Of a DNA stretch of 64,000 nt, positions 3,180-64,000 are shown piece by piece; within the stretch, counting starts at the first letter, position 1, and each line of letters starts with the position of its first letter. Position numbers and translations under genes: made by a program. The notes beneath the pieces were generated by a model. That model ran no database searches. It was not told the DNA's origin and saw only the letters and a program-made list of their open reading frames with translations. The DNA is taken from contig OX485804.1 of NCBI GenBank assembly GCA_950295325.1, positions 10,788,001-10,852,000 of the forward strand. Direction: 5' to 3'. Origin of the DNA: Polytrichum commune (lineage: Eukaryota > Streptophyta > Polytrichopsida > Polytrichales > Polytrichaceae).

Positions 3180-6100
3180 TCCTTCCCAAGTATCACCAGT
3201 ATTTCACGTTTAGGTAGGTGTCCCATTCCCACTATCTCCCTTATTACTCAAGCTACATGATTATTGAGTATGGAATACATATGATCTCTATGTCATACAA
3301 CCATGTGGGTGTGAAGGGTTCAATTGATTATTTGATTAATTAACCTCTTCATTATGGTAATTATGAGTTAAAAGGTATAGAATGAGGTTGGTTAGATGCT
3401 TTTTGAGATGGAAATTAGCTTAGCTAGATGAAAGCCTTAATTACGATTATTGAAGAATTAATGGTAGGAGATAATTAAGCTAAAGTAAATAAAAATAAAA
3501 ATAAAAACTATTGTAGTGATCATGAGTTAAAATGTGATTTTGAAAAATTAAAGTGATTGCACGTCAAAACGATCAAACAAATGAAGCTACCATGTTAAAT
3601 GACTAATGAATTGTTATATCTACCCTTTGACCTAGTAAGATATCCATGGACGAGGTAGATTTCCACTTGACGAATGTCTTTTGATGCTATAAAGTCAATG
3701 ACAGTTGAATAATTGGATGAACTGTAACAAAAGCCTAGTCTTTAAATAAGCATAAAAAACTAAGTGGACGGTGAGCAAAGCTACATCAAGTCAAGCATGA
3801 CATGGTGAAACGCAAGTCAACAAAATGGCTCAACCCTCATAGCTTGAAGCAACCCTTTAGAAAGATCTCGACTTCAGCTTCTTCGTCTCTTACCTCTCCG
3901 AGTCCAATTTCTCATTTTCAGATGCGGATCTCTAGAGGCTTGTTCCTCTGCTCTATTATCTCCCACATTGATTTCGACCAACTCCATCTTTGAGTAAGGA
4001 TGTGCAATTTCTTTATTTTTAATGATTTTGAGTGATATGTTAATATTATATATAAGGTTTATTATATATATATACATATAAAAACTTCAAATTTCATTAT
4101 TTTATAATAAAATTAAAATGAAAAGTTGAAACATGTTTGACTAGTGAATGATTGTGAGCCCGACAAAGACAGTCGACTTCTAAAACTAGCCATTGGTTAG
4201 TCCTATGTCCATTCTTTATGTATATTATAGATAGATCTTAAAGTCTTATTTCTAGTAAAATTGTCCTTGTAGCAATTTAGTTTTATGTCTAAAATTTACA
4301 AAAGTTACTGTGAGATTGCTTTAAAAACTACCTTGATAAAGATAGTTGACTTCAATAGCTTGCCACCGGTTAATCTTAGATCCATTCCTCACATTTCTTA
4401 TATGTGTAGATAGATCTTAAGGTCTTTTTTTCACAAATAATAATAATAATAATAATTCTCTCGGTCACAAACTTTTCCATCTCCTCCGCATCAATCCTCT
4501 CTACTGAGTGTACTTGGTTAGTAGCATTGTAGCTCATGTAGCCAAAATAAATTATGCGAACCTAGATTGAGCGTCAAGGAGCTTGGGAAAGTGCATGTTT
4601 AGACATCATTTCATAGGAAAAATCATCTGCCATTTAGAAACCATAATATCCAAGAAGAAAAGGGTATCATACAACAAACACTTGATGATGCATTTTCCAA
4701 CAAGTTCAACAATAAAAGTTCATGTAGTGAACAAACACTTCGTGCCAAATTCTCAATTAGAAAACCATAGCACAAAGGTATATATGGAAACATTGAACAT
4801 GAGCCTTCATAAAGAAATAAATCAAACAAGAAACATTATCTTCTTTGCCATATGTGCAAACCAAATAGGCTTCTACAATAAGGATTGTGATTGTAGCCTC
4901 ACATAAAGTATTGAAAGAGAACACATAAATTCTTGTAAATTAAATGAATGAAGTGTAACTACATTATTTCTTTCCAGGTTCGCATTCATAAAATCTTTCT
5001 AACCAAATGGTGCAATTGGGAGAACAAGAAACATCCAAAAGTGCAACATGCTTAGTGTATGCTTACAACAAATCATACTAAACATAAACCCTAGGATCCT
5101 AAACGTCAAATCTATATTAGTTATATTGGAATGTAATGGCCCATATTTTATATCTATCTACATTACTTATAATGGGATTGTTTAATTAAATAAACCCTTC
5201 ATTATTTGAAATTCCTATATAGGTCTTTTTAAGTAAATTTAATCCTCATATTATGTCGCACATAGTTTGTTAAAAGCACTAAGTGACCTACCCATGACCA
5301 AAAAAAAAAGGCCCTGTAATTTAGAGAATTTTTTTGACGATAATGTGTTGGTTTCATCCAATTCATGATTTTATCCACTATTGTCATATGGTAATAGTCC
5401 TTAATGAGTACCATGTTCATTCTTGTTAGGGTTTGCATTTTGGGTTCATGGGCATGTTGATTGGCATGGTTGTCAAGCTTTCTTTTACTTTAGGCAAGGT
5501 ATGTCAGATATTTTATGGCTATTTTATGGTAATAAGGGGGTTGATATTCCACACCGTAGTTTTAAACATTTGAATGAGGGGGTCATATTTAATTATTTTT
5601 CCTCCAATGGGAGTATTTGGGAATCTATTATGGCAGTAGGTGAATTGTATGGTGTTTGATGGGTTGTGGGGATGGGTGTATGGCTATATATGGGGACCCC
5701 TAATAGACATAATATGTCAAGTTTTAGAGGGGCCATGCATGTGCATGTGAAGGGGAGACATGTGCATTGTATTAACCATTTTAGGATTGTGATGTTTTGG
5801 GACCGGTTGTTTTGGTTGTTGGCACTTACTAGGGTATAGCACCTTGTGTGTTTGTTGGATTGGAATGTGTGGGCTAATTGGTATACTGCTTTGTTGTGTC
5901 ATGCTATGCAAAGACCTTTTATGTGTGGGTGGATGCAGGTGAAAAGTAGGTGTGGCCACTTGTCGATTTTGTGATTTGGGCAAAGTGTGCAATTGGGGTT
6001 GGGATATGCTAGTGGCCAAGACATGTTTTTTCAGTGGTCTCCCACATATTGGGCATATCGGAATTTGAAGGTTTGGGTAATTTGTGCATTAGATTTGTAT

Positions 6101-6700
6101 GTGGCTTTCCAAAAATGGTTTGAGAGTTTTTGATTGATTTTCTCGTTAGACATTCATTTGTCAACATATGTGAATTTTGATTTTGTGACTGTAGTTCTTG
6201 TTTGAGGTGGAATTTGTTTATGTATGTTTAGAGGTTGTGGATTTGTTTGTGATGTTCGCTTCTCGGGATTTTAAGGTATGATGTGTGCGATGCGTATGTG
6301 AGGGTGTGGGGGTTCATTTGTTGCAGGTGGTTCCTTCACTTGCTAATTTGGTTTGTGATTTCGTTGCCCAAGATTCCGATGTGTTCTCTAACTTTTTGTA
6401 TTGTTATGTTGTGTTTGGTCCATAGAATTTGATGGACTATGATTGAGTAAGTAGTTTATTGGGATGATTGTGCTGGGATGATGGGTGACGAATGTGATTG
6501 TTAATAAGATCTATGTTCTTATATCTTGGCTATATTTGAAAATTGTGTGACTAAGTGATATGTTGGAATATATTCAAATCTTACAAGTTATTTCTTAAAC
6601 AAGTTTTTAGCTGCAACTCAAATTGAGGTTCACTTTTGCACACATGTCTTTCATTCTCTAGAATCTAGATATCAAAGTCAATATAAAGGGATCTCCTTTT
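3180..6700. other. Non-coding stretch, part strongly GT-rich
   Basis: No gene is supported. A short AAT microsatellite lies at about 4436-4456. From about 5260 to 5450 there is a repeat that recurs near 25830-25980, including the string TTCATTCTT(G/A)TTAGGGTTTGCATTT. From about 5420 to 6500 the plus strand is rich in G and T and poor in A and C, which opens frames on both strands without clear protein similarity. This may be a decayed element copy. Confidence 0.45.
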
Positions 6701-6764
6701 GTGATATGCACCTCTCAAATAGTGGAAAATGCACTAGTCTACATACATTTTCTCCTTCCTTCTC

Positions 6765-8014
6765 ATGGAGTCCCTTCTTGACGTTATGACATCCTCATCT
6801 TGGAAGGTTACAAATGAGAAGCTTTGTGCATCGTGTGAGGATGATGATGTTGAAGAGTGCCTCATAAATTTATTAGTAGAGGAACTTTGTGGTTATGGAG
6901 AGGAGAGTGAGCCAAACCTAGAACGAGAGGCAACATTGATCGCCAAAGACAAGTTGCAACTAAGCAACTCTATAATGACTACTTTGCACCTAATTGGTGT
7001 TACACACCACACCAATTTTGACAAAGGTATCACATGATTTGTGGTTTGTTTTTGAGAATTCAAGAAACTATCATTATATATGATGATTACCATCTCCAAA
7101 AGTATGAGGCTACAAGAAATATTGGTTTAGCTACTTGTCAAAAATTCATAGTTGTTATGAGGATGTTGGCACTAGGGATTAAAACGGATGCCATTGATGA
7201 GTATTGCAAGATTGGAGAGAGCACTACATTAGAGTCCCTTGAACATTATTGTGTTGTGGTGAGAGCTATCTTTGTGCATGACTACCTTAGACAACCTACT
7301 AGGCATGCCATTAGCAAGCGAATGACAATCAATGAAGAAAGAGGGTTCCCAAATATGTTTGGTTTAATTGATTCTATGCATTGGCACTGGAGAGCATGTC
7401 ATGTTGTGCATCAATGGAGTTGCCAAGATAAGGATTAGAAGCGTAGCATTATTCGTGTGGTAGTTGTTGATCAAAGGTTACCAATATGGCATGCCTTCTT
7501 CGGCTTGTTGGGTGGAACTATGATGTTAATGTATTGGATAGATCTCCTCTCGTTAAAAATATGGGGTCATGCCAATGCTATAGGGGCGGATATAGGCTTC
7601 TTTGTGAATGAGAATTGGTATCCTCATTATTATCTCCTAGCTGATGGGATCTACCCCAAATACTCATGCTTCGTGCAATCCATTCTTGAGCCACAAGATG
7701 CTAGGCGGAGCAACTTTGCGTAGGCCCAAGAATTGGTGTGTAAGGATGTCAAAAGATGCTTTGAAGTCTTGCAAGGTCGTTGGGGAATCATTCAAAATCC
7801 ATCGCCTTTGTGGCACCCCCATGAAATTGAAGACATGATGTATGCATGTTGTATTCTTCACAACATGATTATACAAAATGAATTTGGTGATGAACACAAA
7901 CCGCTCAAAGTGGGAAACATATTGGAAAGAGGGTCACCTGGGAAGACTTGCAACGGGCACAAAAGGCTCATTTTGACTTGCGAGATGATTTGGCTGAGCA
8001 CTTGTGGCAAATAA
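6765..8014 (+). pseudogene. PIF/Harbinger-type transposase (HARBI1-like), frameshifted
   Basis: This is a decayed DDE transposase of the plant PIF/Harbinger superfamily, which cuts and pastes DNA at short A/T-rich targets. Joined across frames, the order fits the family: an acidic N-terminus; QLYNDYFAPN-like and MICGLFLRI blocks (about 6960-7065); QKFIVVMRMLALG and DEYCKIGEST (about 7140-7225); LIDSMHWHW with the first catalytic Asp (about 7366); VVVVDQRLPIWHAFFGL (about 7457); a VLDRSPL block with the second Asp, in another frame (about 7520-7550); YYLLADGIYPKYSCFV (about 7630); and KDVKRCFEVLQGRWGI with ACCILHNMI (about 7740-7870) toward the C-terminus. At least four frame breaks or stops make it non-functional. 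A convergent Myb-like ORF lies about 1.2 kb downstream, the usual PIF partner. No terminal repeats or target duplication could be fixed by eye. Confidence 0.9.
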
Positions 8015-55072: not shown

Positions 55073-55500
55073 TGCTTCTCTTCCACAAGATAGGTAATTC
55101 GCAACCTATATATATATATATGGATTGGGAATCTATTATTGTACTGAACTACAAAACCATCCGGTGGAAGACAACCAATGGTATTGATCTTATGCTAGAT
55201 GTACAACCACAACACCTACGGCAACAACTATAGGAATTGCAGTTCCTTACTCTTGGTTTACTTCCATTAGATAGGTAATTTGCAATCTATGAGTATGGAT
55301 TGGGAACCTATTATAACACTATATTCGTTAATTGGAGACTTTTTGCTGATTTTGAGACTATTTAAGGACGTGGCTTTCACAATTGTAGGAAGGAAAACAG
55401 TACAAAGATGCTATGTTCCCAAATTAGGATTCAGATATGAGACTCAAATGCATGGAAGTACACAGACGTAAATAAGAAAACGAGATATATGAAAACATTT
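55073..55500. other. Non-coding stretch with diverged repeat copies
   Basis: About 55073-55155 and 55250-55325 are diverged copies of one sequence (TTCCACAAGATAGGTAATTCGCAACCTAT / TTCCATTAGATAGGTAATTTGCAATCTAT, then GGATTGGGAA.CTATTAT). No gene is supported. Confidence 0.5.
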
Positions 55501-55522
55501 GCATATACAAAATCGATATCAT

Positions 55523-55528
55523 ATTTAT
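55523..55528 (-). terminator. Poly(A)-signal-like AATAAA
   Basis: AATAAA on the minus strand lies about 100 nt past the stop at 55626 of the two-exon ORF, a reasonable spacing for transcript 3' end formation. One hexamer is weak evidence by itself. Confidence 0.35.
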
Positions 55529-55625
55529 TGAGTAGGGTTGAAGTACAAAATACATGTGGAATATCCAATATTAAGCCAAAGTCCTAAAAATATAATCCCT
55601 CTACTAAATGTATGTTAATAATAGC

Positions 55626-56531
55626 CTATATGTTTGGATTGTGAATACGACTCGCTACTTGTATTTTTGCCTTAGCCTTTGCGGCCGTTTCTTTTTCTTT
55701 TGCTTTAATGGCATCCATTGCTCTAAAGATCTCGGCTCCGCGGCTGTAACCTTGTTTATTGACTGATCCCGAATATGTGCCATTTGCCCATATTTGTTGA
55801 ACCGCTACCGATTTGTTGGTTGTAATATTGTGAGTGGAATAAGAATGCGTTTGGGAAACCGAATGTCTTGCACTCTTCCGTAGGGCCAAACAACGATCAG
55901 ACTCGCAAGAAGCTGTCTTCAGTGTTCGCCTATCCAATGACGAAGTCGATGATGCCCGGCCCACATTCGTGTACATTGGGGTCTGAACAATGACCATAAA
56001 TATATATAATGAAGTGGGTTAGTATAAGTGGTTACAAGTTACGGATGGAAGTCCAAAAAACCCAAGAAGTTGAAATGCACTAATACACGGAAATCATCAA
56101 GGAAAAACTTGAGAATGCCAATAGTTGGGCACCTTCGCCTTTGGGGCGCTGGTTAGAGCTTTTGGGACATCGACGGGTGTAGATACAAGCCCGAGAGGGA
56201 CGTTCGCAAACGCCGGGACATCAATTTGGGGTTCATCCATGCAAAGGCGTCTGGTCGACCGTGGGTTACGGACGTGCTTCTCACTGCGGAGGGGAGATGG
56301 AGATGGACTTGGAGCGTAATTGAGTTTTGCAACCTTTGCAGGAGGGCTATCCACGACTCCGTCTTCAAACCCGGAGTCTTTGGAGTAATCAACAGCATCG
56401 GCAGCATCGGCGGCCGAATATTGGAATAGTGAAGGCATTGCAACGTCGCTCATACCAAGGGAAGGGGAGCCGGTGTCTGCCTGAGATGCAAACATGCCAT
56501 TGACGACACTTTTGGGTGCTTGGTGAGGCAA
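55626..56531 (-). CDS. Two-exon open frame downstream of the ParB-like/FCP1-like gene
   Basis: Exon a (56531-56109, 141 codons) follows an acceptor TTTTGTGTCTTAG; exon b (55982-55626, 118 codons and stop) follows CATTGTTCAG. The proposed donor CAA|GTTTTTCC is weak, but both exons are phase 0 and the 126-nt intron is a normal size. The product is unrecognised: exon a is Ser/Pro/Asp-rich and probably disordered (DSGFEDGVVDSPPAKVAKLN, PSPSPSPL), and exon b is basic with an Ala/Lys/Glu helix (AMDAIKAKEKETAAKAKAK). No starting ATG is visible, since exon a begins TTG right after the acceptor. It may therefore be the continuation of the upstream gene through a junction I could not find, or a separate transcript sharing upstream exons. 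Confidence 0.45.
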
Positions 56532-56623
56532 CTAAGACACAAAAATACATTACAAAGATAAGGGGAGAAATGTTAGACATTTACATGGAGAGTCCAAGTA
56601 CAAACCCAAAATCATCAAAGTTT

Positions 56624-59600
56624 TCATATTAATTTATTGAGTCTAGCGTAGCCGTACAATCTCCTAAATTCCTCATCTTGTGGGCCTAGAGGCCTATTGC
56701 CAATTGGGTTGGAGAGCACAAAATCCGGGACACTTCCGGGGTGATAGGCAAGCCTCCTAATGTAGGGTCCTAGTTCACTCTCTAGAAAGTTGTCATTTTT
56801 ATCGCTTTCCCAAGGATCCGGGAATATGCAATTGCCCGGGGGATTGAGAATACTCTTTGCCGGGCTGTCGTCAATGAGGAGTGTGTTATCCAGGGTGGGC
56901 CAACAACCGTGGGGAACCCCCTCCAACATAGGGACGCCCACCCAGAGGTTCTTCCTCAGGACCTTTAAGAATTGAGGCCCACGACCTCCTCCGACCTTGG
57001 GTACAATATTGCCACTACGGTCATAGAGGTCATCGCAGTGTTCTTGACCGAGAAGCAAGCATGGCATTGCGAGTTCTCGGAAAAGGAAACCGACGATGGC
57101 CTTCGTGTTGTCCATGAGCATAGAGCTCCAGATGATGACATGGGCGAAGCCAAGGACCTCACGAAGGAAGCTCCTCAAACCGGGGCGGGCACGTACAACC
57201 TTCTTATTTATGAGAGTATCGAAATGTCCGCCGTAATCCATGTCTTGTGGACTACGGAAAGGCCCCTTGGACGCACTATTCGAGATATGTTTGGATTGAC
57301 AAAGCACCCCATTGAGGTCAAATATTATGAACGGTTTCATCATGGGCGCGCTTGGTTTTCCCGCGGGGTTGCGACATATCTCCGACGGACCCTGTGATGG
57401 AACATTCTATCTAGATAAATGGTACTACTCAAGAAAACCAATTGACAAGCATGGATAAATTCAACACAAATTATAAGGCCAAAAATAATCCGAACCATCC
57501 AGTTGAAAAATTGGTATTAATGTAATTGGTGATACACATTTGGTGAATAATATACATTGTCGCAAAAAATATCTGTTGAAGTTAATGGAATCTATGCTAA
57601 CAAAATTGTATCCACCCGCCGGGCGAAGTCGAGGATTGAACTCGATAATATACACACGCCACGAAGGAGGCAGACAAGGAAGTTTCGGACGCGCGTCCGT
57701 AATGTGGGAGGCATGCTCAAAGGTTGATTACCTCTTCAGGGGCGAGGTCCGCGCCAGCAGTGCCTCCCTCACCTGGCCCCGTCATGGGCACAGGCTCCGG
57801 ACGCGCGCCCGCAAAATTGTCCAGATCTTCGACCACCAACAAGGTGTCTCTAGCCACTTGCGACCCTTGAGTATCCACGTAAGGCTGATCCTCATCTGTG
57901 GAGTCTTGGCTGCCCCGCATATGTACATCTTTATCGCCGATGGGGGCGTTGCCTTCATTGACATCCGTCTCGGCGGCACCCGCCATGTCACGTGCCGGTA
58001 TCTCCTCCACTCCTGTAGGATGAGAGGAGGGCTCCTCTGGAGTGGCGACAACAAGGGGAGAGGGCGGGACAATCAACGCGGGGGCTGGATACGCATGCTC
58101 GGGTATATACACCGCATGGCTACTAGACGGAGGCCGCATGAGAGTGGGGGGCATAGACATGACGGCATCGGGAGCTGTATAGACTACAGGGGGTCTTGCC
58201 TGCAAGCTCTGCATCAGGCTCATAAATTGTTGACTTTGGGCCAAGAACTGTTGATTTTGGGCCATGAGATCGGCGTGCCTTCGAGCAGACTCCAACCTAG
58301 CTTGCTCCATCTCAGCTTGGATGGCGGCCATCTTTTTGGCGTGCTCTTCGTTAGCTTCTCGAAGCCGTTGGTCAAGCTCTTCTTTCATTCGCCTCTCCAT
58401 CTTCTCGTCCAATTCGGACACTGACATGGGCTCTTTCTTCACCTTGCCAGGTTCCGTAGGCAAGGCAGAGATGGCATTGTGAATCCTAATCTCATCCTCG
58501 TCTTCATCGGAGAGCTCCAAGACCGCGCCTTCAGGGTATTCGTTGTATGGCATCTTGTTCCTCTTTCGTCGACTCTCACGATATAGAGAGATATCAGGCC
58601 TCAATATCAACTCCAGCACATCCCTCCCCTCCATAGGGGGTAGATCTGAATGTTGAGATCCCCCTCCAGATGAAGCGGTGCATCCGCCTTCTGCCGCAAG
58701 GTCCACATCCTTCTCGGCCATAACTCTTGGAGCACGAGATGGACCCGCAGTTGAGGGAAATCCAACTCGAGAGGTGGGAGTCCCAAAAGGTGAGAGAACA
58801 GGGGTATGAGGGACCCTTATCGGAGTAAAGTTTACGCGTGCCTCCTGCGCATCCGTGTCGTCTGTTCCCAGCAGGAAAACACTTGGATTAATTGGGTCGC
58901 GAACAAGGCCGTGTAAAGGCTCCTGTGTGGAGGGTTGCGCTCTTGGGGAACTGGGATCTTGGTCCTCTTCAGGGTCTGTCTCCATTCCGGGCATTGCCTC
59001 TTCTCTAGAAGAAAGAGGCACAACAGGATGGGGTGTAAGGACGTCCATGATGTCCTGGATATCCATTTTGGAGGCCATTACCCTGTGAGTATGGGCGTCA
59101 TCGTAGTCGGAATCCTGCACAAAAGAATTCACCTGCAAGCCAAGCATCTGGACCATAACAAGAAAATTAGATAAGAACAATTGTGGTGATTGCATATAAA
59201 TGAGGCTAGATGTCAACACGTTATACGGACATGCGTTCGTAAAACCACCACTCAAAAGTTGGACAATTTTACAGACGCACGGTCGTAAAATTCACATGCA
59301 CCTGATACTGGGTTTTTACGGACGCGCGTCCGTAAAATAACTATGCAAAGATAGGTGGGTTGAAAGACAAACAAATACTCACCAGTGCTGCATACATAAA
59401 CTTCGTGCCTCCAAAAACGTTGTAAACTGTCTCACTCATGACAGTTAAAGCCTTCAAGACCCCTATATAAAAGTCCATCCGGAGCTCGAACGCCGGATAG
59501 ATTGCATGCATTGTCTCCTCAACAAGCTCCTTGGGATGTGGTGGCGGCAACGAATAGACTTTCCTGAACACCTCGTGTGGTTTAATGGGCAATCGCCCAG

Positions 59601-62124
59601 TTGGGGAAGACTTGCGTGTTAAGAAATAAAGCTGCACAGCTCCCACTTGCTTCACCCCCCTTGCCTCTTGAATGAAAGTGATCCCTTCTGTCTTCGCTGG
59701 GATGTAGGTGCTGTGGTACATATCGTATTCGAGGTCCATCGTTGATGTGTACAGATGGACAATGGATGTGGACCTCTCTTGCTCTACAATCCATAACCAC
59801 ACATGAGGCTCAAAGAGGGCAGGCGAGCGATAGCTCTTGAAGGCTTTTAAGAAGGGCTCGTAGAAGGGTGCTCCCGCAACGTCTTGCTTCCAAGCTCCGG
59901 GAATTGCACGAAAATCAAAAATGGCGAAAGGGCAACCCCTGGGGTCATCTCTCACAGAGGCTCTTGAAGCATGGGTGTCCCATGTGCCGAACTTCATGCC
60001 CTTTGCGACCGTGCAGAATCTTGCAAACCCTCCAAATTTCGCGTTCTTTTTCCTATCGAGAAAGTGAACGTACAACCCTGCCTCCCTCTCGTCGATGGAT
60101 CCCTTCTTTTCGTTCCTTCTAGATCGTTGGGCAAGGAAGGATGATGCCCCTCTTATCAAAGCTCGCATTGAGATGCCATTGATGTGGTATTCACCCTTCA
60201 ACTTCCTCCAATTCTCCCACACGATCTCACCATCACTATTAATGAGGTTGTGGGTGGGTAGCAATTTGCTAATCTCCCTTACAGCCATGGTCTTCTTCTT
60301 TCTGTAATCGCACCATTCCTTAATGTGGTACGTGCATGGCTTCATGTGCTTCGGCCGCTTCAGAAAGATTTTGGGATAGGGCAGAGTTCTTCTAGGAGTT
60401 TCTAGAAGAATGTGTTCTGCTGCCCTATAGAGCTCCGAGTCCATCAATCCTTGGAGGGGACGAAAGAACTCTCGCAGGATTGGTGGTACCTTAACTTTTG
60501 AGTTGCTCTTGTAGGTGTTCTCCGTATCTGGATTGACAAGGTCGCCGTTGTTGTGGGCATCGAAAAGTCGCAACCATATTGACCACGTCTCTTCTGTTGC
60601 AGTGATGAGTTTGAGTTCGCCTTTTAATTCATGCACTGTTTTCATGCCGCTTGTCTTCATGTCTATACTCGAGAACTTTGTCAATATGACATTGCTGAAT
60701 GTCTGCAAGAGGCACGAATTGCAAGAAATCAGAACACTGAATTCAGTACAGATTAAATTCAAATATTTGAAGTAGTGGGAGGAGAAGGGCCACATTTACG
60801 GACGCACGTCCGTAAATCTATTTGAATAACATACCTGCCATTTTGGGTTCTTCACGACTGCATTATCTCTTTCTTTAGGGGGACATTCATGCTCCACCCA
60901 CAAGGTCCTCCCAGCCACGATGTTGGCTGCCCATGAAGCCTCGAACTGCCTCACTTTATTCCCCTGGTTCATGAAGGCAGATATTGCTATGAGCTGGTTC
61001 GAGTCCTTGGAATGCACGACGAATGCCTTCCAATATCGGATTGTCTCCTTCAATGGGTTTTTCCACTCGTCGTCTTCAAGGAGAGCTTTTGCAGCCATTA
61101 CACTATGTTGGCCGTCAACAATGTAGAACTCTCCATTCTTGAGAATCGGCCAATTCTTTTCGTTGACTTCAACGATAGGATCCTTTGGTGTTACACAAAT
61201 GGTCTGTCTGTCAAACTTGGGGTTGTTCATGATGTTGTTCATTTGCCACCATACCCCGCTTTCTTCTTTTGCTCTGGTATTCATACTTTCGGTGCCCTTG
61301 TGGCATTTGTAGACGTCTACCTCGAAAGTAAAATACCTGCCAAGGGGCCAGCATCCCTTCGTCTTCTCATCGAACTCTTGGAATATTTTTGTTGAGAGTT
61401 CGGCGTCAGGGCGTTGACCCTTCTTGAGGAGTGGAGCCACAGTCAGTGTAGAGCTGACATCCGGACCCTCTGTTAGTCCAGAGTCCATCTGCGAGTGAGA
61501 GCGTTTACTCGTCTGTCTGCTCCCTCTTGATGCACCACTCTGCGAGGGCCTTGAGGAATCCGGCACTGGTTTAGGCACACGCTTGGGCCGTTCAGGAACG
61601 ACTTGTTTTTTCTTCTCTTTCCCCTTTCTGGCCTCTAGCAAGGCTCCATTTACTCTTGTTACATTGTTCAAGAGTCGTCCAAGCCGCTTCCCCGTCCAAG
61701 GTGCATTACATGCATAGTCTTGGAACTCCGTCTGAAGATTGAAGCAAGCCGCATCTGTACTACCATTTTCACATTCATTTTTGTTGAATGGATGGTAAAA
61801 TTCGTGCAAAATAAATGTTACTCGGTCTTCTTTCTTTTCAAGGTCTATTACTACATAGTCCCCTTGTGCCACTGCACACTCTACTATCCACGATTTAAGC
61901 TTTATCCACTTCTCAGCTTCATCTATGTCTGTCTTCATTTGATATGCAAATCTAAGCACATATATTTCTTTCTCGTCCTTTTCTACCAGTACTGTCCAAT
62001 TATCCACAATTTCATCTTGTGGCTTGTAATGGTCGTTGGGACTTATGTCTTTGATGGCTTCTGGTAGCGGAGGAATGAGAGCTTCTGCAAACATCTCAAT
62101 TGCATGTCTCTTTTTAGATGCCAT
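56624..62124 (-). CDS. Multi-exon gene: ParB/DGQHR-like N-terminal half, coiled coil, FCP1/NIF-like phosphatase C-terminus (about 1,597 aa)
   Basis: Four exons join in one frame: 62124-60835 (430 codons), 60702-59383 (440), 59147-57732 (472) and 57391-56624 (255 plus TGA). Donors are CAG|GTATGT, CTG|GTGAGT and GAG|GTAATC; acceptors CTCTTGCAG, TATGGTCCAG and CCATCACAG. Introns are 132, 235 and 340 nt, all phase 0. The start ATG is the first base after a TCATTTGCAG acceptor, so the 5' UTR is spliced. Residues 335-347 (YIVDGQHSVMAAK) match the ParB/DGQHR signature. Residues 431-870 are unrecognised. Residues 871-1342 are acidic and Pro-rich with a Glu/Lys/Gln coiled coil at about 1115-1185. The C-terminus is a HAD/FCP1-like domain: FDLNGVL (1366-1372), VIIWSSM, and LLIDDSPAKS. 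The second Asp of the DxD motif is Asn. Nuclear action is inferred. Host gene or mobile-element gene are both possible. Confidence 0.75.
57686..57699. repeat. Intron-3 palindrome copy
   Basis: CGGACGCGCGTCCG, a 14-bp perfect palindrome inside intron 3 (57392-57731), is the core of the locus-specific palindrome family. A possible eroded relative, CCGGACGCGCGCCCG, lies in exon 3 coding sequence at 57797-57811. Confidence 0.85.
59222..59337. repeat. Intron-2 palindrome cluster (three copies)
   Basis: Intron 2 (59148-59382) holds a perfect 24-bp palindrome at 59314-59337 (core ACGGACGCGCGTCCGT with TTTT/AAAA arms) and two degenerate copies, at 59222-59242 (TACGGACATGCGTTCGTA) and 59267-59290 (TTACAGACGCACGGTCGTAA). 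Confidence 0.9.
60794..60817. repeat. Intron-1 palindrome copy
   Basis: A 24-bp palindrome with one central mismatch (core ACGGACGCACGTCCGT) sits in the 132-nt intron 1, beginning about 17 nt after the 5' splice site. In the pre-mRNA it could form a tight hairpin near the donor. Confidence 0.9.
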
Positions 62125-62177
62125 CTGCAAATGATAAGATATATATGTTAGAATTCTTGGCAAAAGATATAGATCAT

Positions 62178-63013
62178 ACTTTACGAACGCGCGTTCGTAA
62201 AGTTTTGCAAATTTTCTCAATTACATTTTTTGATCGAAATGAAAAGATACATTTTTCCAAATACGCATAACGCGTATATTATATACTCAAATATCTCTAT
62301 AAGTTACGGACGCGCGTCCGTAAACTTTGCAAAGATAGTATGGTGTTAAATATCTATGTATTCAAGAACGCGCTTCCGTAACCTCTGCACATATATTATA
62401 TATAGTTGATTCATAGTTCTTCCCAGTTTACGGACGCGCGTCCGTAAACTTTGGAAATATTTTAGATGGGAAATGTCTCTTCTACTTGCAAAATCTATTG
62501 CATTTACGGACGTGCGTCCGTAAACTCTATACATATATTTTTTGAGAGTATTGTTTCTCACATACACAAAGATCCACAAAGTTTACGGACGCGCGTCCGT
62601 AAACTTTAAGGATTATAAAGTCTATTCTAATATGCCTAATATTATAATATTTGGCTTCGTTTGCGTAATATGCTGTTTGGGAGTCTTGTTTCTCACCTAC
62701 ACAAAGAAACACAAAGTTTACGGACGCGCGTCCATAAACTTTGAGTATTATAAAGGCTATTTTATAATGCCTAATATTACAATATTTGGCTTCGTTTGCG
62801 TAATATGTTGTTTGAGAGTCTTCTTTCTCACCTACACAAAGATCCACAAAGTTTACGGACGCGCGTCCGTAAACTTTGAGAATTATAAAGGCTATTTTAA
62901 TATGCCTAATATTACAATATTTGGAATCGTTTGCGTAATATGCTGTTTGAGAGTCTTGTTTCTCACATACACAAAGATCCACAAAGTTTATGGACGCGCG
63001 TCCGTAAACTTTG
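62178..63013. repeat. Palindrome array in the leader intron (10-11 copies)
   Basis: The 1,248-nt leader intron (62125-63372) contains palindromes centred at about 62190 (26 bp, ACGAACGCGCGTTCGT variant), 62313 (20 bp), 62372 (degenerate), 62437 (26 bp), 62513 (central mismatch), 62592 (30 bp), 62727 (32 bp, one mismatch), 62862 (32 bp, perfect) and 62997 (32 bp, one mismatch). In the 62190 copy both halves changed together (GGAC to GAAC, GTCC to GTTC), keeping symmetry. Confidence 0.95.
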
Positions 63014-63038
63014 AGGATTATAAAGGCTAATGTAATGT
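62540..63038. repeat. 135-bp tandem repeat, about 3.7 copies, one palindrome per unit
   Basis: Palindrome centres at 62592, 62727, 62862 and 62997 are exactly 135 bp apart. Each unit also contains GAGAGTCTTGTTTCTCAC, ACACAAAGATCCACAAAG, ATTATAAAGGCTATTTTAAT and TATTTGGCTTCGTTTGCGTA. Because 135 is divisible by three, chance frames stay open across the array on both strands; I do not regard them as genes. Confidence 0.95.
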
Positions 63039-63372
63039 TTGCGTATTCCAATGTTTTCATTAATGCTCTGTATTTTTCGGGACTTTACCTTGTCGTCCAA
63101 TATGGTTTTGTCCTCCAAATAAGAATGCAATCTTACTTCACTGCAATAGCAAACACTGCACTGCAGATTGACAACATAAGGCACTTTCAGAACACTGACA
63201 TGTCCAAAACTAAATGATTTTTAGAATGTAGCCATAGACAAAGTACTAAACAAATTCAGAATTCCTTGAAACTGTAATCTCACATGCTCTCATGCTAACC
63301 TTAAGCCCTAAACCACAACAACCCAAAATTGCAATCATACAAAATGCAATTGCAATGTTCTAAAAAACTTAC

Positions 63373-63431
63373 CTTTCTAGAGTGTTTGCTCCTAAACCAC
63401 AACTAGCTACTCCTGGTGCAGCTAATACCAA
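63373..63431 (-). other. Predicted non-coding leader exon (59 nt)
   Basis: On the minus strand this exon is bounded by the acceptor TTGTTCATTTGCAG and a near-consensus donor AAAG|GTAAGTTTTT. It has no ATG. It would join the CT-rich first exon to the coding exon starting at 62124, across introns of 386 nt and 1,248 nt. It was predicted from splice signals only. Confidence 0.6.
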
Positions 63432-63824
63432 CTGCAAATGAACAATAAAATTGAGGTCAGAAACCTCTAGTAATTCAATGTGCACATGCATGATTCAACA
63501 TTGAGAACTACTCAAAAAAAGTTGTTCATAAATCAGATTCATGCAACACAAGTGAAAGGAAACTATTCATTTGTATGCAAAAAATATAATGAACAACATG
63601 GTGAAGCTACAACTGAAACCCTAATGAGCAACATCTGAAACACTAATTACCCTTGCAACAACTGAAATCAACAACTGAAAACAACCTAATGAGCAGTACC
63701 AAGCAACAATGAGCATCCTAATGATCTAATGAGCAACAAGCAAGCAAGTAGCAAGCAGAAATTACTAATGAGCTAATGAGCTAATAAGCTAATGAGCAGC
63801 AAACAAGGAGAACTTACTCTAGCT

Positions 63825-63838
63825 CTGACGCGCGTCAG
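63825..63838. repeat. Leader-exon palindrome CTGACGCGCGTCAG
   Basis: A 14-bp perfect palindrome with the same GACGCGCGTC core as the intron copies but different outer bases. It sits in the predicted first exon just before the donor, so it would be kept in the spliced leader. Confidence 0.85.
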
Positions 63839-63839
63839 C

Positions 63840-64000
63840 AATTGACCAGCAAGAATGGGTTTTGAATTGTAAGGAAAGAGATGCAAGAGAAGCAAGAGAA
63901 GCAAGAGAAACAAGAGAAACAAGAGAGGAAAGAGAAGATAAGTAAGAGAAGCAAGAGAAGAGAGAGAAGAAAGTGAAGATAAGCAAGAGAAACAAGAGAG
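63840..64000. repeat. GAGA/AAGCAAGAGA-rich tract
   Basis: The plus strand is made of degenerate AAGCAAGAGA and GAGAAG units to the window edge. On the transcribed strand it is the CT-rich leader described above. Confidence 0.8.

Follow-up and report, generated by a model that had tools for sequence, protein, structure and literature searches.

The right-hand part of the window, a 64,000-nucleotide stretch of Polytrichum commune contig C2, contains a minus-strand gene (gene 1) with copies of a palindrome in its introns and upstream region. An initial annotation of this DNA had proposed four long phase-0 exons with GT-AG junctions and about 1,597 codons. This model was reproduced exactly from the window sequence, since four minus-strand exons in phase 0 separated by GT..AG introns give 1,597 codons plus a stop, with zero internal stops. 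Gene 1 and a divergent gene 2 are the two genes of a 17,140-bp DNA transposon with terminal inverted repeats (TIRs), the right part of which lies in the 10 kb that follow the window (L001; L001:1-8454 is C2:10852001-10860454). When the window and the next 10 kb were compared with copies on C6 and C2, common sequence was found from position 55,312 over approximately 17 kb, with unrelated flanks. The features within the window are collected in Table 1.

The transposon is present in many copies. In the genome searched (408 Mb, 64 contigs), the 28-bp inverted repeat AACACTATATTCGTTAWTTGGAGACTTT was found 384 times in forward and 395 times in reverse orientation at no more than one mismatch, compared with 0 for the reversed control. 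Target site duplications (TSDs) were read in 19 inverted TIR pairs, 16.5-20 kb apart, among the first 100 places listed. Both repeats of each pair are perfect, so that this is a sample of well-kept copies, and a few further pairs among those listed were left aside. The TSD was exactly 4 bp in all 19 pairs, against 2 of 342 mismatched pairs, and its sequence was mixed (for example ATGG, CTGG and CCTA). A 4-bp TSD also fits by eye in the window copy (TTAT) and in the two compared copies on C6 and C2. When exon 1 of the window clade was searched as protein against the genome, at least 98 scored matches were obtained, 76-100% identical and some of them partial, spread over C1-C7. Exon 1 of a second clade, B, gave at least 97, again some partial, and exon 4 of the window copy at least 147, including a distant group at 61-62% identity.

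Two further copies served for most comparisons. The family-A reference lies at C2:21465066-21482337, and the family-B copy at C1:53236001-53280000 has the identical two-gene layout together with two nested insertions resembling long terminal repeat (LTR) elements. The identity of family B to the window copy is 43-45% in exon 1, 54% in exon 2, 61% in exon 4, and 69-73% and 85% in gene 2, by exon. Exon 1 shows 108 fixed differences between the clades, too many for picking out specificity residues. The two LTR-like insertions (C1:53254512-53261800 and 53263257-53270308) appear to be recent, since their direct repeats of about 980 bp are 99.7-100% identical. This family-B copy, the one read, had no clean 4-bp TSD; its TIR flanks share AATTTGTA, and on the left side four extra bases separate this sequence from the TIR.

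Comparison of the window copy with the family-A copy (exon 1 78% identical) gave ratios of nonsynonymous to synonymous divergence (dN/dS) of 0.10, 0.12, 0.27 and 0.18 for exons 1-4. Against the C6 copy, exon 1 gave a dN of 0.008 and a dS of 0.141. These values indicate that gene 1 is maintained by purifying selection. The window and family-A copies agree in the positions of the intron-1 donor and acceptor, the intron-2 acceptor and the intron-3 donor, the single blemish being the intron-2 donor GT of family A, which is shifted one base further on. This blemish aside, the low dN/dS and the common splice positions support the exon model independently of RNA. Judged by its codon substitutions, gene 1 is a protein gene that selection has preserved, in an element that was active recently and many copies of which are broken. 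The dS between the window and family-A copies is uneven, at approximately 1.4-1.5 in exons 1-2 of gene 1, 0.7 in exon 3, 0.44 in exon 4 and 0.28-0.34 in gene 2. Since synonymous divergence changes along the element in this way, it suggests that the elements are mosaics that arose by exchange of the N-terminal half of gene 1.

Gene 2 lies to the right of the window and is divergent from gene 1 (L001:4838-6242 joined to 6398-7920, 975 amino acids). Its second exon matches DUF7869 (E 5.2e-39), and inspection revealed the acidic motifs HDKMD at 437, QLDNC at 561 and GHTHDDID at 598, of which DKMD, LDNC and GHTHDDID are also found in gene 2 of family B. These three motifs look like a DDD triad, and on this resemblance gene 2 is likely to be a DDD-type transposase; it is the sole transposase candidate found in the element. 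The two parts of gene 2 gave dN/dS values of 0.23 and 0.15 between the window and family-A copies, the first calculated from 423 first-exon residues as the family-A gene changes frame near residue 435. The second exon had 0 matches in viral contigs.

The palindrome had been described as private to the gene. All nine exact copies of the core GACGCGCGTC in the window do lie in the gene region, at 57,688-63,836 (0 in 100 shuffles), but the genome contains 1,559 cores, against 31 for the reversed control, and a palindrome private to this single locus was rejected on that count. The full motif, TTTACGRACG-NN-CGTYCGTAAA, is 22 bp long and wider than the core, with a free central dinucleotide at which many different pairs occur. 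When 22-bp windows were scored with up to three mismatches to this motif, the window element had 21 sites, and ten simple shuffles had 0. Each of the three gene-1 introns holds sites, as does the gene-2 intron, and others lie upstream of either gene, with a spacing of approximately 95 bp in tandem repeats upstream of gene 2. None of the 21 is in coding sequence, which occupies 8,534 of the 17,140 bp (binomial p 5e-7, a value to be read with the site counts not being independent, since sites spread by tandem duplication together with their surroundings). Site number varies within one clade, with 21, 18 and 17 in three copies, as expected for tandem repeats in flux. The initial annotation had also considered recognition of mobile-element ends. 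The element is indeed mobile, but the palindromes are internal and are not its ends, since the 22-bp sites begin at least 2.1 kb from either end and the ends are formed by the separate 28-bp TIRs. Near the right end (L001:7960-8230), the repeats TTTACGGATGTGGAATCC and TTTTACGGATGTGGACCC look like decayed or half palindromes.

The spelling of the palindrome differs between clades. All 25 sites of family A are of the G-type (G..C), whereas all 30 of family B are nearer to the A-type (A..T), and the latter occupy places equivalent to those of the window clade, in introns 1 to 3 of gene 1 and in the upstream regions of the two genes. Genome-wide, the pattern TTACGNACGNNCGTNCGTAA was found at 5,113 sites, compared with 0 for the reversed control. 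There were 1,310 G..C sites, 60 mixed sites (G..T or A..C) and 0 Y..R sites, leaving by subtraction at most 3,743 A..T sites (other combinations were not counted apart); A..T was the spelling in 100 of 100 among the sites listed. The symmetric change together with the free centre fits a double-stranded site bound by a dimer. Six G-type clusters were listed in the first 37 Mb of C1; five lie within approximately 10 kb of a window-clade exon-1 match, and the sixth, at C1:25.98 Mb, has no such match nearby among the matches listed. For the A-type, the clusters listed cover C1 as far as 2.6 Mb; none of them is near a window-clade match, and three contain a clade-B exon-1 match.

A 9,491-bp non-autonomous element at C1:639070-648560 bears on the role of these sites. 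It has TIRs with 27 and 26 of the 28 bases and the TSD CATA, and all that tblastn detected of the genes was 81 residues of exon 4 and 49 residues of gene 2. All of its 26 perfect A-type palindromes are within the element. Since this derivative, the one such element read, keeps 26 palindromes after losing most of both genes, it speaks for a role of the palindromes in cis. The initial annotation had counted palindromes at loci without the gene as evidence against its proposal. Such palindromes do occur here, but as the derivative is a relative of the element its loss of most of both genes fits a cis role rather than refuting one.

The motif reported near residue 340 of the gene-1 protein was found in exon 1 (Table 1), and the C-terminal FCP1/HAD domain was confirmed by a match of the last exon to Pfam PF03031 (NIF/FCP1; 52.1 bits against a cut-off of 21.8, E 7.7e-14), the sole Pfam family above its cut-off in the four exons. 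This domain retains the DD and WSS motifs. The ParB/DGQHR-like character assigned to the N-terminal motif fared less well. A ParB-like PHROG profile matches residues 317-362 weakly (E 0.02 at best) and, at E up to 1, 6 of 10 relatives. NCBIfam holds a model of the DGQHR domain, and no NCBIfam family, this one included, matched any of the 10 exon-1 relatives at E up to 1. In searches of the PDB, the exon-1 profile had 0 matches at E up to 10 and exon 1 alone nothing beyond a chance match (E 0.27). Exon 4 alone had 0 PDB matches at E up to 0.01, and its profile a single non-significant one, to a C-terminal domain (CTD) small phosphatase (E 0.49). The four exons, the downstream open reading frames and gene 2 were all without a match to a methyltransferase family at E up to 1. 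Exon 1 had 0 confirmed relatives in viral contigs, and the ten-protein exon-1 alignment had 0 confirmed relatives in viral contigs and 0 in bacterial and archaeal genomes.

We propose, as the reading we narrowly favour, that the palindromes of this two-gene transposon are putative dimer sites of an element protein, most likely that of gene 1, which sustains expression of its own family with some contribution from the FCP1/NIF-like domain. A dimer of this protein would bind the palindromes as double-stranded DNA, and binding at introns and promoters within its own family would keep those genes expressed, either by autoactivation or by anti-silencing, and would perhaps also mark the DNA for transposition. 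The weakest step concerns the FCP1/NIF-like domain, which might act via the CTD of RNA polymerase II or on another phosphoprotein, or might serve as a non-catalytic binding module. From the element, its genes, their selection, the sites and the clade-specific spelling that were observed, we infer both the binding partner and the role of the FCP1-type domain. The suggestion in the initial annotation of a self-acting, autoregulatory protein fits the sequence data in that the sites are mostly non-coding, no intron lacks them, both genes have them upstream, and their letters change symmetrically from clade to clade, with binding itself still presumptive. A more specific version is that gene 1 encodes a candidate regulator of RNA polymerase II. 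Its dimer would sit on the palindromes of its own family, its FCP1-type domain would dephosphorylate or bind the CTD and so allow transcription of the element in the face of host silencing, and protein and palindrome would have co-diverged into the G- and A-types; this we consider doubtful.

Several observations weigh against gene 1 as the self-recognition protein. Both element proteins differ between clades, and either could be the binder. By best match, 19 of the 21 sites in the window copy are G-type but 2 are A-type. The palindromes multiply by tandem duplication with their surroundings, and a few lie in coding sequence in the other families, namely 1 of 25 in family A (3 mismatches) and 2 of 30 in family B (2 mismatches each, a count that depends on our own reading of where exon 3 ends), all near the end of exon 3. 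Internal stops interrupt all but 47 of the 98 exon-1 matches listed. With respect to the protein, no Pfam ParB family matched gene 1 at E up to 1, and the residue after DGQH is Ser, DGQHS being invariant in 10 of 10 exon-1 proteins. DGQHR and ParB carry Arg at this position (the ParB NTPase motif is GxHR / GERRxRA), and since Ser stands in its place nucleotide-dependent ParB behaviour cannot be assumed. A helix-turn-helix was indicated only by a low-confidence PHROG match in exon 2 (E 0.2), and AlphaFold2 models made without relatives had a mean pLDDT (predicted local distance difference test score) of 32 for exon 1 (430 amino acids) and 33 for residues 240-430. Finally, motif I of the FCP1/NIF domain is DLNGVL in all three families aligned. 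As the catalytic consensus is DxDx(T/V), the second catalytic Asp is Asn and catalysis is doubtful. Beside these points stand two observations on exon 3 of the palindrome-bearing copies: a poorer site (4 mismatches in 20) lies inside the coding exon at 57795 of the window, and imperfect palindromes occur at its coding end in the three families read (window 57795, A 14777, B 34682 and 35058).

The alternative that survives best is that the palindromes are internal sites of the gene-2 transposase, acting as transposition enhancers in the manner of subterminal repeats, and that gene 1 does something else. It draws on the palindromes flanking the starts of both genes and on the 9.5-kb derivative, in which they were kept and tandemly multiplied beside a perfect TSD while most of both genes was lost. 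However, they are not subterminal, lying at least 2.1 kb from the nearer end, and gene 2 is better conserved between clades than exon 1 of gene 1, yet the site has changed. We regard this alternative as rather unlikely, though worth keeping in view.

It is improbable that the palindromes are passive sequences without function, spread inside introns by tandem duplication and gene conversion. Several sites do belong to tandem repeats (135-bp period; approximately 95-bp spacing), so that their shared letters stem partly from duplication, and close copies differ in site number. The sequence context of the sites nevertheless differs in each intron of the two genes, and the symmetric difference between G..C and A..T is seen at equivalent places even though exon 1 is only 43-45% identical. 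Hairpins in the RNA of introns and leaders, with a role in splicing, translation or small-RNA processing, seem more improbable again. The palindromes are in all four introns and upstream of the start of gene 1, and a 9-bp stem with a GNNC loop can be read from them, but the derivative keeps them without most of both genes and no Rfam match was found in the window at 55315-64000. Furthermore, C-G and U-A would also pair at the variable position, yet Y..R is absent beside the 5,113 sites. A host-type ParB/parS-like centromere or partition system, for which the weak ParB-like profile match and the palindromic sites could be cited and which the initial annotation had raised, is most improbable given transposon copies and exon-1 matches scattered over C1-C7, a motif without the ParB Arg, and scanned coding regions whose Pfam matches (E up to 1) include no ATPase.

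That gene 1 encodes a protein by which the transposon recognises itself is a reading drawn from parallels with two known systems. Sola1-1_Ec32 of Ectocarpus, 21.5 kb long, carries an accessory gene on the other strand from its transposase; the 1,104-amino-acid product of this accessory gene has a ParB-like domain and a DNA methyltransferase. According to the available part of that account, its authors suggest that such ParB-methyltransferase proteins bind and modify their own transposon, and they cite green and red algal cases (PMC12477816). The present element is likewise a giant DNA transposon (17.1 kb) with its accessory gene opposite the transposase, and the accessory protein likewise joins a ParB-like part, weakly supported here, to an enzyme-like domain. 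Compared by description, it differs in having FCP1/NIF instead of a methyltransferase, in its land-plant host, and in palindromes with clade-specific letters as candidate target sites; the available text on the ParB-bearing accessory proteins, which are suspected of acting on their own element, names no target sites (PMC12477816). The second parallel is VANC21, which binds short, tandemly repeated motifs in the introns of VANC21 and VANB21 and upstream of VANA21. Related VANCs of Arabidopsis VANDAL elements have different motifs, and both binding and demethylation were demonstrated, as described in the part of the report available (PMC5735166). The arrangement is alike in that short motifs, often tandem, occupy the introns and upstream regions of genes within one transposon and are family-specific together with the protein, but the VANC motifs, as given there, have 8-9 bases and are not palindromic (PMC5735166), and binding is demonstrated for VANC and presumed here. 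The present element belongs to the recently noticed giant transposons with ParB-like accessory genes, and its FCP1-type domain and candidate target sites are new. To our knowledge, VANDAL is not known as a DUF7869 element.

CACTA elements begin with CACTA and may have a 2-bp TSD, and the ends of the present element read (AA)CACTA...TAGTG(TT). Its TSD of 4 bp differs from the 3 bp given for EnSpm families in the available text (PMC12730594). Membership in CACTA/EnSpm, with TSDs of 2-3 bp, was rejected, the longest match being 4 bp in 19 of 19 pairs and 2-3 bp in 0 of 19. The CMC group is described in the same text as having a C-x2-C between the second and last acidic motifs (PMC12730594), whereas in gene 2, by inspection, RCSACEK stands before all three. 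The element agrees with the Sola superfamily in its 4-bp TSD, by the rule taken from the available description of Sola2 (PMC3627910). TIRs and 4-bp TSDs are common to Sola2 and the present element, but Sola2 TSDs are AT-rich (AWWT, ATAT, AAAT, ATTT; PMC3627910, as far as available), unlike the mixed TSDs of the 19 pairs measured here. In the open-licence part of PMC no paper was found on DUF7869 or on an FCP1-type transposon protein, and nothing relevant on DGQHR together with a transposon. Sola1 elements, too, have a 4-bp TSD.

With at least 195 exon-1 matches in two clades, two palindrome spellings and a derivative that keeps the sites, self-recognition becomes testable in a land plant. If the proposal is true, the concerted change of a transposon and its recognition motif, known from VANC, would have a second and independent example. 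Should polymerase II be the target of the FCP1-type domain, this would represent a novel means by which a transposon withstands silencing.

Table 1. Features of the transposon within the window. Positions are those of the window; L001 denotes the 10 kb to its right.
Feature	Position	Strand	Remarks
Transposon, left part	55315-64000		remainder L001:1-8454 (C2:10852001-10860454)
Left 28-bp TIR AACACTATATTCGTTAATTGGAGACTTT	55315-55342	plus	partner L001:8427-8454 = C2:10860427-10860454; both with 0 mismatches
4-bp TSD TTAT	55311-55314		partner L001:8455-8458, beyond the window
Gene 1 exon 1	62124-60835	minus	contains YIVDGQHSVMAAK = residues 334-346
Gene 1 exon 2	60702-59383	minus	
Gene 1 exon 3	59132-57732	minus	low-complexity; least conserved of the exons
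Gene 1 exon 4	57406-56624	minus	FCP1/NIF-like HAD domain, motif I DLNGVL
Isolated core GACGCGCGTC	63827-63836		in presumed 5' untranslated exon
Eight palindrome sites upstream of gene 1	62180-63008		starts 62180, 62303, 62427, 62503, 62582, 62717, 62852, 62987
Tandem repeat upstream of gene 1	62541-63036		period 135 bp, 3.7 copies, one palindrome per unit
Palindrome site, intron 1	60795-60816		
Three palindrome sites, intron 2	59222-59336		starts 59222, 59268, 59315
Palindrome site, intron 3	57682-57703		
Downstream conserved coding region ('exon 5')	56100-56531	minus	amino acid identity 77% to family A, 41% to family B
Possible downstream coding exon ('exon 6')	55626-56007	minus	attempted family-A comparison did not align (16%)

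Downstream of gene 1, coding sequence with the pattern MPSLFQ..AVDYS..FEDGVV is conserved in families A and B despite the exon-4 stop, and by its conservation it may represent a third gene or alternative last exons. With regard to a possible splicing of exon 4 into the downstream coding region, the exon-4 stop was found in all three families read. In further copies listed, retrieved with a search pattern that itself required the stop, the stop region has two main spellings. A GT at this region is present in family A and missing in the window copy.

Elsewhere in the window, a plus-strand open frame of 566 amino acids at 41849-43549 matches RNase H (E 1.4e-10) and is probably the end of a long interspersed nuclear element. 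One chlorophyll a/b-binding gene of the genome was compared with single-domain PDB chains and came closest to 8htu_U and 7xqp_a, which are moss structures; together with the seven large contigs this points to a land plant, probably a moss, as host. On another contig, C5:1751760-1846160 holds fourteen chlorophyll a/b-binding genes of equal profile score in one 95-kb cluster.

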